The notes under the pieces: generated by a model
Seen by the model: the letters and a program-made list of their open reading frames with translations, nothing else
Database searches by the model: none
Told to the model about the DNA's origin: nothing
Part shown: in pieces, positions 9,408 to 58,535 of the stretch
How positions within the stretch are numbered: position 1 is the stretch's first letter
Layout of the letters: every line of letters starts with the position of its first letter
DNA from: Bacillus sp. CGMCC 1.16541
GTDB lineage: Bacteria; Bacillota; Bacilli; Bacillales; Bacillaceae_H
Direction of reading: 5' to 3'
NCBI RefSeq assembly: GCF_003184905.1
Contig: NZ_QFRU01000027.1
Coordinates: forward strand, 1 to 64,000
Length of the DNA stretch: 64,000 nt
Translations under genes and position numbers: made by a program

Positions 9408-10250
9408 ATGAGTATAAAAACACAAAAAACCATTCGTCTAACACTATCATACGCTGTTATTTTCGTAATGTTTGCTATTATCTTATACCCTATCCTTTGG
9501 ATTGTAGGTTCTTCGTTAAATCCTGGGGATAGCTTGTCTGGATCAAGTATGATTCCAGAAAATGCAACGTTCAAACACTATGCAGCTTTGTTTGATACAA
9601 GCCAAAGTAACTATCTAATTTGGTACGCAAATTCGTTAAAGATTAGTATTTTAACAATGATTTTCTCGCTCATTTTAGTTAGCTTAACAGCGTACTCGTT
9701 TTCGCGTTATCGCTTTATTGGGAGAAAAAATGGGTTACTAACATTTTTAATTCTACAAATGATTCCGAACTTCGCAGCATTAATCGCGATTTTCGTCTTA
9801 GCAACTGTAACAAGATTAGTCGATACACACCTTGGGTTAATTTTAATCTATGTAGGTGGAGCGATTCCGATGAATACATGGCTAATGAAAGGATATTTAG
9901 ATACGATTCCGAAAGAATTAGATGAGTCAGCTAAAATGGACGGAGCGGGTCACTTACGTATCTTCTTCCAGATCGTCATGCCTTTAGCAAAGCCAATCAT
10001 TGCTGTTATCGCATTATTTACGTTCACAGCACCATTTGGAGATTTCATCTTAGCGAAAGTATTACTTCGTTCAGCAGAAAACTATACGTTAGCTGTTGGT
10101 CTCTATGACATGATTTCAAAACAATTTGGTAACCAGTTTACAGCCTTCGCTGCAGGCTCTGTACTAATTGCAGTACCGATTGCTCTCTTATTCTTAGCTT
10201 GTCAAAAATATTTCATTTCAGGTTTGACGGCTGGAGGTACGAAGGGATAA
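9408..10250 (+). CDS. malG: Maltodextrin ABC transporter permease MalG
   Basis: Second permease subunit, 280 residues, about six membrane segments, with the EAA loop ELDESAKMDGAGHLRIFFQIVMPLAKP near residue 170. It starts two bases after the malF stop codon, and its ribosome binding site lies inside the end of malF (AAGAGGA), so the two genes are probably translationally coupled. Together with MalF it forms the channel that takes up maltodextrins captured by MalE. Confidence 0.95.
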   Translation: MSIKTQKTIRLTLSYAVIFVMFAIILYPILWIVGSSLNPGDSLSGSSMIPENATFKHYAALFDTSQSNYLIWYANSLKISILTMIFSLILVSLTAYSFSRYRFIGRKNGLLTFLILQMIPNFAALIAIFVLATVTRLVDTHLGLILIYVGGAIPMNTWLMKGYLDTIPKELDESAKMDGAGHLRIFFQIVMPLAKPIIAVIALFTFTAPFGDFILAKVLLRSAENYTLAVGLYDMISKQFGNQFTAFAAGSVLIAVPIALLFLACQKYFISGLTAGGTKG

Positions 10251-14084: not shown

Positions 14085-14094
14085 GTTAAGTTAT

Positions 14095-14141
14095 CTAGAA
14101 AAAGAGACATAACGAAAGAAGCGTTATGTCTCTTTTTCTAG
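14095..14141. terminator. Strong bidirectional terminator between the dehydrogenase and yajQ
   Basis: A perfect 20-base stem (14095-14114 with 14122-14141) around a 7-base loop. One arm contains AAAAAGAGA and the other TCTCTTTTT, giving a T-run in both directions for the two convergent genes. Confidence 0.92.
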
Positions 14142-14157
14142 GTGTAACCTCAATTCC

Positions 14158-14649
14158 TTATCGATAGTTAATAAATTGAACATCGATTGGTAAGTCTAGT
14201 TCACGAACACCAGCAATGACAGCTTGAAGGTCATCACGGCTTTTTGCTGAAACGCGCACTTGATCATCTTGAACTTGGCTTTTTACTTTTAACTTACTGT
14301 TTTTAATCATCGTATTTATCTTTTTGGCGTTATCTTTGTCGATTCCTTGCACAAGTTTGCCACGTTGACGTACGGTACCACCTGATGCATTTTCTACTTT
14401 TCCATATGAAATGTTTTTCGTTGGAACCCCACGCTTAATAAGCTTAGACACTAATACATCTTTTAGTTGGTCCAATTTAAACTCATCATCTGAAACAAGT
14501 ACAAGTTCTTCTTTATCAAGCGAAATATCACTTTTACTTCCTTTGAAGTCATAACGAGTTTTAATTTCTTTTAACGCGATTGTAATGCCATTCTTCACTT
14601 CTTCTAAATCAACTTTTGAGACAATATCAAATGAACTTTCTTTTGCCAT
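14158..14649 (-). CDS. yajQ: YajQ-family nucleotide/c-di-GMP-binding protein (YitK)
   Basis: Small soluble protein of 163 residues made of two ferredoxin-like domains. It begins [21 protein letters not shown] and ends with the typical [12 protein letters not shown]. The ATG at 14649 has GGAGG at good spacing; the longer frame to 14748 lacks support. YajQ homologues bind nucleotides, and in some bacteria cyclic di-GMP; the function in Bacillaceae is not settled. It sits next to the S1-domain gene as yitK does next to yitL in B. subtilis, here divergently oriented. Confidence 0.93.
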
Positions 14650-17138: not shown

Positions 17139-17984
17139 TTGATTATTTGGTTAGAAGTGAAGAAATTTGCGGTTGTCATCTTTGGTGCATTATTAAATGC
17201 GATTGCGTTAAACTTGTTTTTAATTCCAGCCAATGTATATGCGAGCGGATTTACTGGAATTGCGCAGTTAATTTCAACAACACTTACAGAGTATACTTCC
17301 TTATCTATTTCGACGGGGATTTTATTATTCCTCTTAAACATTCCTGTCACAATTTTAGGTTGGAAAAAGGTTGGGAAGTCTTTTACGATCTATAGCTTTG
17401 TTAGTGTAGCTGTCACCACTATTTTCTTAGAGCTGATCCCAATTTATCATATGTCTCAAGATATTTTATTAAATGCAGTATTTGGTGGAGTTATTGCCGC
17501 TGTAGGGGTAGGTTTAACCTTAAAATGGGGTGCTTCGACCGGAGGACTAGACATTGTGGCAATGGTATTGTCACGCATGAAAGATAAACCAGTGGGTACA
17601 TATTTCTTTTTATTAAATGCCGTTATTATTACAACAGCAGGGTTGTTATACGGAGGAGAAAAAGCGCTTTATACAATGGTGACACTATATGCTTCTACGC
17701 GCGTTATTGATGCTATTCATACGAGACATGAGAAGCTAACTGCAATGATTGTTACAAAAAAAGCGTCTGATTTAAAACAAGCTATTCATTCAAAACTAGT
17801 TCGAGGAATTACAACGGTACCTGCAAAAGGGGCATTTACAAATGAAGAAAAAGAAATGATGATTATCGTTATTACACGTTATGAACTGTTTGATCTCGAG
17901 CAAATTATAAAAGAAGTAGATCCAAATGCGTTCACAAATATCGTACAAACAACAGGCATCTTTGGTTTCTTTCGAAAAGATTAA
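17139..17984 (+). CDS. yitT: YitT-family membrane protein (DUF161/DUF2179)
   Basis: About 281 residues: five to six membrane segments in the first 170 residues (VVIFGALLNAIALNLFLIPANVYASGFTG), then a soluble C-terminal DUF2179 domain (AMIVTKKASDLKQAIHS...GITTVPAKGAF). I prefer the TTG at 17139, eight bases after AGGAGG. The first possible start, a GTG at 17130, overlaps the ribosome binding site itself. The cellular role of the family is unknown. It is followed at once by a strong terminator. Confidence 0.88.
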   Translation: MIIWLEVKKFAVVIFGALLNAIALNLFLIPANVYASGFTGIAQLISTTLTEYTSLSISTGILLFLLNIPVTILGWKKVGKSFTIYSFVSVAVTTIFLELIPIYHMSQDILLNAVFGGVIAAVGVGLTLKWGASTGGLDIVAMVLSRMKDKPVGTYFFLLNAVIITTAGLLYGGEKALYTMVTLYASTRVIDAIHTRHEKLTAMIVTKKASDLKQAIHSKLVRGITTVPAKGAFTNEEKEMMIIVITRYELFDLEQIIKEVDPNAFTNIVQTTGIFGFFRKD

Positions 17985-18599: not shown

Positions 18600-18741
18600 A
18601 GTTAGTTCCTCCTCAAATATAAAAAGAATCGACACGATTTGCTGTGTCGATTATAGTATGGGTTACATATTTCGTTATCATTTCACTAAAAATTTACCTG
18701 CATTGAGTAGCGATGGAGAAGATGACAAATAAATGGAATGA

Positions 18742-19554
18742 TTATAATTTCAGTGTGTTTTCCAAATAATAAGCAATACCATCTTCTTCATTAGAGAGTG
18801 TAATCTCGTTCGCAATACTTTTAAGAGCGGAAATACCATTAGCCATTGCAATACCATGACCAGCAAATTCAATCATTTCTAGGTCATTATCTTCATCACC
18901 AAAGGCAATAACACGATCTTTTGGAATGTTGTAATAGTCTGCTACACGTTTTAAACCAACTGCTTTATTTAATCCTTTTCTTACAATTTCAACAACATGC
19001 CAAGGAGCACCCCAGCGACGGTGTTCAATGACTTCTGCATGAACAGAAGATAAATGTGAGCGAATTTCATCTACATGTGCTTCATCTGCATGAATGAGGA
19101 TAGAGGTTGGATCATGACTTAGTGTATGACGAAGATCTCCTGTTTGAAGTTTAGGATTTCCTAAACTAATCACGTCAATGAGTTTTCGGTCTTCGTAGTG
19201 GAGGTAAATATCATCCATCACTTCAGCTAAAATATTGTTCACACTATAGCTATCCATTGCTTCTACAATATGATGAGCCGTTTGACGTTGAAGAGGATTA
19301 TGATAAACACCCCATTCTTGCTGTTGAGGGTGATGCACAAGTGCTCCATTAAAATTCACAATGGGAGTATTTAGTTGAAGTTCGGTATAATACATGGAAC
19401 TAGAGCGATAAGGTCTACCAGTCGCAATCATTACAATATGCCCTTGTTGTTTAGCTTTTTCAATGACTTTTTTTGTTCTAGATGAAATGATTTTATTATC
19501 CGTTAAAAGTGTACCATCTAAATCAAGCGCAATTAAATGTGGTTTTGTCGACAT
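18742..19554 (-). CDS. yitU: HAD-superfamily Cof-type phosphatase (YitU)
   Basis: 270-residue HAD hydrolase of the Cof/type IIB class. Motif I is DLDGTLL near residue 11, motif II lies in MIATGRPYRSS, and motif IV is GDEDNDLEM near 219, all intact, with the C2-type cap in between. Relatives dephosphorylate sugar phosphates or flavin and pyridoxal precursors, so the substrate is open. It is divergent from yitW, as these genes are neighbours in B. subtilis. Confidence 0.9.
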   Translation of the reverse strand: MSTKPHLIALDLDGTLLTDNKIISSRTKKVIEKAKQQGHIVMIATGRPYRSSSMYYTELQLNTPIVNFNGALVHHPQQQEWGVYHNPLQRQTAHHIVEAMDSYSVNNILAEVMDDIYLHYEDRKLIDVISLGNPKLQTGDLRHTLSHDPTSILIHADEAHVDEIRSHLSSVHAEVIEHRRWGAPWHVVEIVRKGLNKAVGLKRVADYYNIPKDRVIAFGDEDNDLEMIEFAGHGIAMANGISALKSIANEITLSNEEDGIAYYLENTLKL

Positions 19555-20970: not shown

Positions 20971-21194
20971 GGGACCACCTTCTAAACCGTATTCGATGTT
21001 TCAAACATCTTATAAGTGTCCTTGTTTATACATGGATCAAGCGCAACTAGGACTATTTATCTATTATACATGATTCCTTTTAAAAAAATGGTGAGTTTCC
21101 CGAATTTACCGTATCATCAAGTCCATTTAGTCTCCTGCCTTTTACACACGATACCACTTCTCAAACAGCAATCCAGACTTCTTGAATATACCGA

Positions 21195-21299
21195 CAAAGA
21201 TTCACCTAAGCGGATGACGCCAACCTCGTAAGAGGGGTGTCATCCGCTTAGGTCTAACTAATTTGACATAACAGCACTTCCGTTATGTCAAATTAGTTA
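21195..21299 (+). repeat. Copy 1 of a 105-bp two-hairpin structured element
   Basis: Order: conserved lead CAAAGATTCA; hairpin A 21205-21252 (CCTAAG...CTTAGG, inner CCTC-GTAA-GAGG, AA bulge on the 5' side); two-base linker; hairpin B 21255-21299 with an 18-base perfect stem (21255-21272 with 21282-21299) and loop AGCACTTCC. The element at 46697-46801 (minus strand) aligns along its whole length without gaps, and many differing positions are paired changes. It ends 21 bases upstream of the argC -35 element. Confidence 0.85.
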
Positions 21300-21303
21300 G
21301 ATA

Positions 21304-21321
21304 AATTAATAAATATTTATT
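21304..21321. promoter_or_regulatory. ARG-type (ArgR/AhrC) operator at argC
   Basis: TTAATAAATATTTA (21306-21319) matches 12 of 14 core positions of the ARG box TGAATWWWWATTCA and is almost perfectly palindromic. It abuts the argC -35 element, a repressing position. Confidence 0.6.
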
Positions 21322-46678: not shown

Positions 46679-46696
46679 AACAATTATTAATCGAGC

Positions 46697-46801
46697 TGAC
46701 TCATATGACATGACGGAAGATCTGTCATGTCATATGAGTCAGACCTAAGGGTATGCCGCCCCCCTTACGGGGTTAGCGGCATATCCTTAGGTGGACCTTT
46801 G
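46697..46801 (-). repeat. Copy 2 of the 105-bp two-hairpin structured element
   Basis: Read on the minus strand: lead CAAAGGTCCA; hairpin A (46744-46791) with inner CCCC-GTAA-GGGG and the AA bulge; two-base linker; hairpin B with an 18-base perfect stem (46697-46714 with 46724-46741) and loop AGATCTTCC. It aligns with 21195-21299 without gaps. It sits in the fabH leader in the opposite orientation to fabH. Confidence 0.85.
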
Positions 46802-46898
46802 ATGGCGGATTTAAAAGCTGTGTGTGAACTGGTACTTAGGTGATTGGACGATTAAATACTTAGAATTATATAAACTCTTTAATAAAAGGAGATGCTAT

Positions 46899-58253: not shown

Positions 58254-58535
58254 AAAAAAGCCCATTCATCTCCTAACAAACGTTAGGGACGAATGGACCG
58301 CGTTGCCACCCTATTTATTCCAGCATTTACGAGAAATGCGAAATCTCTTTAACCATAATGAATAGACATTATGTGTTATGTAACGTATAACAAACGTTCA
58401 AGCTTTTCACTTGAAAGCTCAGAAGTCCATTCCATACTCGTAATTGTTTGTTTTCACCAACCACAAACTCTCTAAAAAATTACAAGGAGTATGTACTACT
58501 CTTCCTCATTGCCTATATCATTAAATTTGCTTTTG
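58254..58535 (-). promoter_or_regulatory. T-box riboswitch of trpS
   Basis: Minus strand. The T-box sequence AGGGTGGCAACGCGG is at 58298-58312. It is followed by a terminator stem (58262-58277 with 58282-58296) and a T-run (58254-58259). The T-box can pair with the 5' arm of the terminator to form the antiterminator. In stem I a GAATGGACTTC loop carries a TGG triplet (58427-58429), the expected Trp specifier codon; a second TGG lies five bases upstream. Flanking AGTA and GAGC sequences fit a stem I loop E. Confidence 0.92.

Follow-up and report, generated by a model that had tools for sequence, protein, structure and literature searches.

A dispersed, REP/MITE-like two-hairpin repeat of the Priestia group, with hairpin B covariation probably due in large part to template switching

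Two full copies and a partial relative in the window

The window analysed here is a stretch of 64,000 nucleotides from Bacillus sp. CGMCC 1.16541 (contig NZ_QFRU01000027.1, positions 1 to 64,000), and it holds two full copies of a two-hairpin element. The core of copy 1, as modelled, spans 21181..21307 on the + strand (cmsearch, 133.8 bits, E = 2.7e-33) and comprises a lead, hairpin A, hairpin B, and a tail. Folding places hairpin A at 21204..21253 (+), with an AA bulge at 21222-21223 and a GTAA loop at 21228-21231, and hairpin B at 21255..21299 (+), with an 18-pair stem and a loop at 21273-21281. The modelled core of copy 2 lies on the − strand at 46689..46815 (cmsearch, 124.4 bits, E = 7.9e-31). 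Its hairpin B folds at 46697..46741 (−), and its hairpin A, located by folding and cmsearch at 46743..46792 (−), has one broken pair (A-C).

An earlier note, made from the letters alone, had singled out 21195-21299 (+) and 46697-46801 (−) as two copies of one element. Both are two-hairpin copies, their gapless alignment was confirmed, and the fold reproduced the 18-pair stem and nine-nucleotide loop of hairpin B, the AA bulge, and the GTAA loop. The note had also described many of the differences between the copies as compensated; this is so for hairpin B, where the four changed pairs are all still paired, and fails in hairpin A at the broken A-C pair of copy 2. The 105-base stretch of copy 1 has a minimum free energy of −60.8 kcal/mol (z = −12.86) and that of copy 2 one of −65.5 kcal/mol (z = −11.31), and none of 200 shuffles was as stable as the window copies.

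A degenerate third copy, also proposed from the letters, was found as a match at 14088-14199 (−; cmsearch with filters off, 39.5 bits, E = 2.1e-8). It carries hairpin B only, at 14095..14141 (−), 11 nt past the stop codon of a + strand gene. By eye this relative resembles an ordinary bidirectional terminator, and it may offer a clue to the relation between hairpin B and terminators.

The gene argC lies 91 nt downstream of copy 1, and no ORF of at least 90 amino acids overlaps either full copy. The note's failure to recognise a named RNA agrees with Rfam, which gave no model for the element: at gathering scores the window had a single match, none of it on the element, and the six weak matches around the element were all far below gathering scores. 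The single match is a T-box leader at 58282-58518 (−; RF00230, 133.3 bits).

Distribution and anatomy of the family

A blastn search returned 17 match pieces in the genome of origin and matches in 10 of 41 genomes. We then used a covariance model (R1) built from 28 copies chosen for having no gaps and 35 or more of their 40 pairs formed, a choice that inflates the share of paired cells. Such a search had been suggested in the earlier note, and it found homologues in the element's own genome and in related Bacillaceae. In its own genome there were 37 matches at E ≤ 0.001; three of these repeat a listed place on its opposite strand, which leaves 34 places. Since 15 of these exceed 90 bits, a chance origin is excluded. 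Priestia abyssalis has at least 149 matches at E ≤ 0.001 (150 candidates scored, opposite-strand matches included), with 68 strong places among the matches listed. Twelve of the 16 family genomes had matches, including a single weak one in genome G004. Order-wide, 13 of 397 genomes had matches; a single one lay outside the family, with a weak match (E = 8.4e-4). The 397 genomes are a sample of a larger group, searched with stricter filters that lose weak matches. A pattern scan found 24 stretches, all in P. abyssalis DSM 25875, Bacillus sp. FJAT-14578, P. aryabhattai B8W22, or P. koreensis DSM 16467.

The phage collection contained no match to the element. The plasmid collection had matches on one P. 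megaterium plasmid, NZ_CP069400.1, with three copies (L230) at 10020-10146, 17598-17715, and 18684-18810. They sit within a gene block encoding corA, PilZ, LCP, MATE, and a GRP transporter; by gene content this block resembles a chromosomal region of genome G008, which suggests transfer.

For the counts below we assembled 113 copies, comprising matches of about 62 bits or more and excluding lower-scoring matches, opposite-strand matches, and the duplicates L011 and L016 (of L158 and L160). Of this set, 110 fold with two hairpins, and pair counts rest on the 60 that are gapless; all 113 were found through model R1 and so lean to its structure.

In P. abyssalis and FJAT-14578 the core forms the 3′ side of a larger unit with TATATA-like ends. 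A 5′ motif can be recognised in 42 copies, and in 37 of these the distance between the ends is 191-194 nt. For copy 1, flank alignment points to 21100..21180 (+), which includes CCAGAC, as the probable 5′ part of a unit of about 190 nt, with the left limit extrapolated from P. abyssalis copies. An alignment of 58 copies gave no consensus fold for this 5′ part of about 85 nt. Same-strand tandems occur in the element's own genome, at spacings of 183-202 bp on contigs C1, C3, and C38; on C9 the spacing is 302-334 bp.

Among the 110 two-hairpin copies, the loop of hairpin A is GCAA in 61, GTAA in 16, and GAAA in 12 (89 of 110 together) and is inverted in one. The loop of hairpin B contains CTT in 87 and is inverted in two, both from one locus. 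Loops that are kept and rarely inverted suggest recognition of one folded strand, though rare flipping alone would also keep their orientation.

Partial copies in FJAT-14578 are without hairpin A, hairpin B, or both, and several of their junctions fall, by eye, at short repeats; we infer that the missing hairpins are losses. The twelve loci concerned were picked because they looked partial. Two separate loci, L237 and L238, are without both hairpins and apparently share the same junction at GAATT repeats. Upstream of the copy at another locus, L090, a stretch of about 76 nt (262-337) matches many places in the eight genomes searched and is possibly a tRNA gene.

Covariation and change at orthologous loci

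Of all evidence for a functional RNA, covariation is usually ranked as the strongest. Among the 28 model copies, both sides had changed in 27 of 40 pairs, including all 18 of hairpin B. None of 500 shuffles reached any of five covariation measures and all slid versions scored lower, which places the covariation proposed from the two window copies beyond both kinds of control.

A structured RNA would be expected to favour G-U over A-C intermediates. Cells of the 60 gapless copies were 1005 Watson-Crick, 51 G-U, 14 A-C, and 10 other (of 1080) in hairpin B, and 1088 Watson-Crick, 71 G-U, 35 A-C, and 126 other (of 1320) in hairpin A. The raw G-U excess arises mostly from columns common to the P. 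abyssalis group. Counted as independent events per group and column, it vanishes (26 G-U against 18 A-C in hairpin A, P = 0.29; 10 against 12 in hairpin B, P = 0.83), and we dropped it as evidence. T-T and A-G mismatches persist in hairpin A in about half of the gapless copies; arm correction is therefore incomplete.

Copies at the same locus, recognised by their flanks, show how the hairpins change. In 15 gapless orthologous pairs, among which sequences recur, hairpin B had 29 two-sided changes that remain paired and 16 one-sided changes. Hairpin A had 31 one-sided changes, five two-sided paired, and five two-sided unpaired. Concerted change is therefore clear in hairpin B and not in hairpin A. 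Between L087 and L092, whose flanks are 97.2 and 97.4 per cent identical, 10 of 18 hairpin B pairs differ, and seven of these are two-sided and still paired. Across five genomes the L092 stem has a single other occurrence, in the copy of G007 at 265155. L087, L092, and L096 represent one locus in P. megaterium-group genomes, with two quite different B stems. Inversions are also seen. At one locus, L207 and L208 carry in hairpin B the reverse complement of the common loop GCTCTTT, a sequence that differs by one base from the loop of their ortholog L091; at a second locus, the hairpin A top of L204 exactly matches the reverse complement of that of L192.

Template switching between the arms of an inverted repeat is described in PMC8604942 as homogenising the arms and inverting the spacer, and multi-base compensatory changes in hairpins are likewise attributed to it in PMC8794818. 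Hairpins maintained in this way share with ours arm homogenisation, spacer inversion, and multi-base compensatory changes; here, in contrast, the pattern belongs to one dispersed bacterial repeat family and, of the two hairpins, stands out mainly in one.

The earlier note had favoured selection on a folded single strand, with palindrome correction in a mobile REP/MITE-like repeat as its alternative. The alternative fits the changes between orthologous copies. The favoured reading is weakened by those changes and by the lack of a G-U preference by event: two-arm changes in hairpin B, in-place inversions, and hairpin losses all count against it, while the mostly one-sided changes of hairpin A at the same loci and the GNAA pattern kept in its loop still speak for it.

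Of the alternatives to a mobile repeat, a functional structured RNA survives best, and we still consider it unlikely. The + strand would be transcribed, with a GNRA-capped hairpin A beside a hairpin of free stem sequence, and the covariation would reflect RNA selection. Covariation beyond both controls, the kept hairpin A loop, the one-sided changes of hairpin A, and the retention of same-locus copies across P. megaterium-group genomes are all consistent with it. Against it stand the event counts for G-U, the distance of every Rfam match around the element from a gathering score, and a flanking-gene context that is mixed; moreover, promoter-like sites near the window copies are at about shuffle level (two against a shuffle mean of 1.9; three against a mean of 1.4, SD 1.1), and transcription from the neighbouring gene would read the opposite strand at 41 of 90 loci.

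Placement, movement, and the preferred explanation

That last figure reflects an oriented placement. In 50 of 113 copies, and at 41 of 90 locus clusters, hairpin B ends no more than 25 nt from a stop codon on the opposite strand; of random intergenic points in two 400-kb stretches, 5.0 and 6.4 per cent do so (ORFs of at least 100 codons; the crude ORF caller yields some false neighbours). Such copies occur in all five genome groups (7/17, 17/42, 7/16, 10/18, and 9/20). Among 47 copies with a mapped left end, 19 are stop-adjacent at the B end and four at the left end. The remaining 49 of 90 loci are not stop-adjacent. Copy 2 is scored in the count of 50 by virtue of a 109-aa ORF that is probably a false call, antisense to a gene; neither full window copy illustrates this placement clearly.

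The placement would suit an element of mRNA 3′ ends, whose reverse strand, transcribed from the upstream gene, would terminate transcription or protect or process the mRNA end. Its recurrence in all five groups and the terminator-like look of the relative at 14095-14141 point this way. Yet the stem followed by a U-tract that marks an intrinsic terminator is not general here, with that relative as a possible exception: the longest A-run of the hairpin B 5′ arm, a U-run on the reverse strand, is at most four in 58 of 60 gapless copies. Neither window copy has a terminator-like site, more than half of the loci are away from stops, and the A-C excess expected of a selected reverse-strand RNA is absent. 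We regard this account as slightly less likely still than a + strand RNA. A scan for terminators beyond the element was too insensitive to use, finding terminators for only 16/148 and 37/164 ordinary genes.

Copies also show a strand bias. In P. abyssalis, 52 of the 68 places among the matches listed fit a pattern of a single strand for each part of the chromosome (Fisher P = 8.7e-6, with the split at 2.25 Mb chosen after seeing the data). In G007, G008, and G012, 27 of 30 places of at least 60 bits agree with this bias (mid-contig split; many G007 and G008 positions are similar). Among 42 sorted P. abyssalis copies the strand split is 16 to 1 beside a stop codon and 19 to 6 elsewhere. Gene orientation accounts for part of the bias, and the two are confounded.

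Along 400 kb in which P. abyssalis and FJAT-14578 are syntenic, some element places have shorter counterparts; these sites have diverged, and none offered a clean empty site or target duplication. TATATA-like sequences stand at both unit ends, and their deviations do not match by eye. Movement is thus deduced rather than seen, since the shorter counterpart sites have diverged and carry no clean duplication. As in MITEs, the copies are dispersed and numerous, and the two in the window have no ORF of 90 aa or more. Among the matches in 400 kb of each of two genomes, no copy had its ends separated by a gene, as a MITE parent would.

Three candidate partner enzymes went unsupported by searches of their distribution across genomes. 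The Y1 transposase (PF01797) was found in 6 of 16 family genomes and was absent from 7 of the 12 that bear the element, and no element lay beside it in 21 Y1 loci (66,865 bases). No integron integrase (TIGR02249) exceeded the curated cut-off in the 16 genomes; ordinary tyrosine recombinases matched below it, as in all 14 controls. Reverse transcriptase had no match in the element-bearing genomes G003-G006, G012, and G015.

These searches bear on the least probable account, an attC-like recombination unit in which a recombinase would read the bulge and loops of one strand, stems would vary, and replication would set the strand of insertion: kept bulge and loops with free stems, tandem copies, and the strand bias are in keeping with it, and the integrase result and the confounding of that bias with gene orientation tell against it. 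As characterised in PMC2727003, integron attC sites share with our family structure-based recognition, little sequence conservation, extrahelical bases, and use of one strand; they differ in that no integron integrase passed the cut-off here and no cassette, or unit bearing a cargo gene, was noticed among the copies.

The explanation we prefer, at a probability of roughly 0.55, is that the element is a dispersed, non-autonomous REP/MITE-like DNA repeat of the Priestia group, with hairpin B covariation that comes largely from template switching. Within a hairpin, a polymerase switching template would copy one arm onto the other and sometimes invert the spacer, producing many of the paired changes, above all in hairpin B. 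A candidate recombinase or transposase would read the folded single strand when the unit moves, and loop and bulge bases would be kept because of this reading. Copies would survive just past stop codons because harm is least at those positions, and they would be co-transcribed there, in reverse, within 3′ UTRs. Counting against template switching are the replaced L092 stem, which exceeds what a simple arm copy explains and had no donor copy in five genomes, the mostly one-sided changes of hairpin A, and the mismatches that hairpin A retains; the lack of a clean empty site and of a linked enzyme among those searched for weighs against the repeat explanation more broadly. The folded strand may have a part in the unit's own movement, the reverse strand may act at mRNA ends, or the + strand may serve as an RNA.

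A REP/MITE-like family without a GTAG or CGTC tag is the safest description. As reported in PMC3733652, REPs (GTAG and CGTC superfamilies, linked to RAYTs) are palindromic, intergenic, multi-copy, and near gene 3′ ends, lying less than 20 bp from these and often supplying stop codons. The present family is likewise intergenic and beside gene 3′ ends at 41 of 90 loci. It differs in being about 190 nt long with two hairpins, against 20-40 bp for REPs, in having GTAA in a loop and no GTAG or CGTC tag at the hairpin foot (consensus of 58 and of 28 copies, by eye), and in the seven of 12 element-bearing family genomes that give no Y1 transposase match. Small size, dispersal, folding, and a narrow group are shared with bcr1 of the B. 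cereus group (PMC3733652 and PMC2267715) and with BOX, RUP, and SPRITE of pneumococcus; judged by their descriptions, these differ in that no clear terminal inverted repeat or target duplication was seen here. A search of titles and abstract openings in the open-licence literature found no description of such a repeat, and within that literature the family is apparently undescribed.

A bolder form of the mobile-repeat explanation, which we hold to be doubtful and about as improbable as the + strand RNA, is a new class of folded-single-strand mobile units in Firmicutes. An enzyme would recognise the GNAA loop, AA bulge, and pyrimidine loop of one DNA strand, stems would be rewritten freely enough for a single locus to bear two very unlike stems in one species group, and insertion would take a fixed orientation past stop codons on the replication-biased strand.

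The oriented placement beside stop codons gives a repeat that has no known mobilising enzyme a precise rule that can be tested. The family covaries beyond shuffled and slid controls, yet at least one of its hairpins bears marks of template switching. The family is a natural test set for separating RNA selection from template switching, and a caution for covariation-based RNA discovery.
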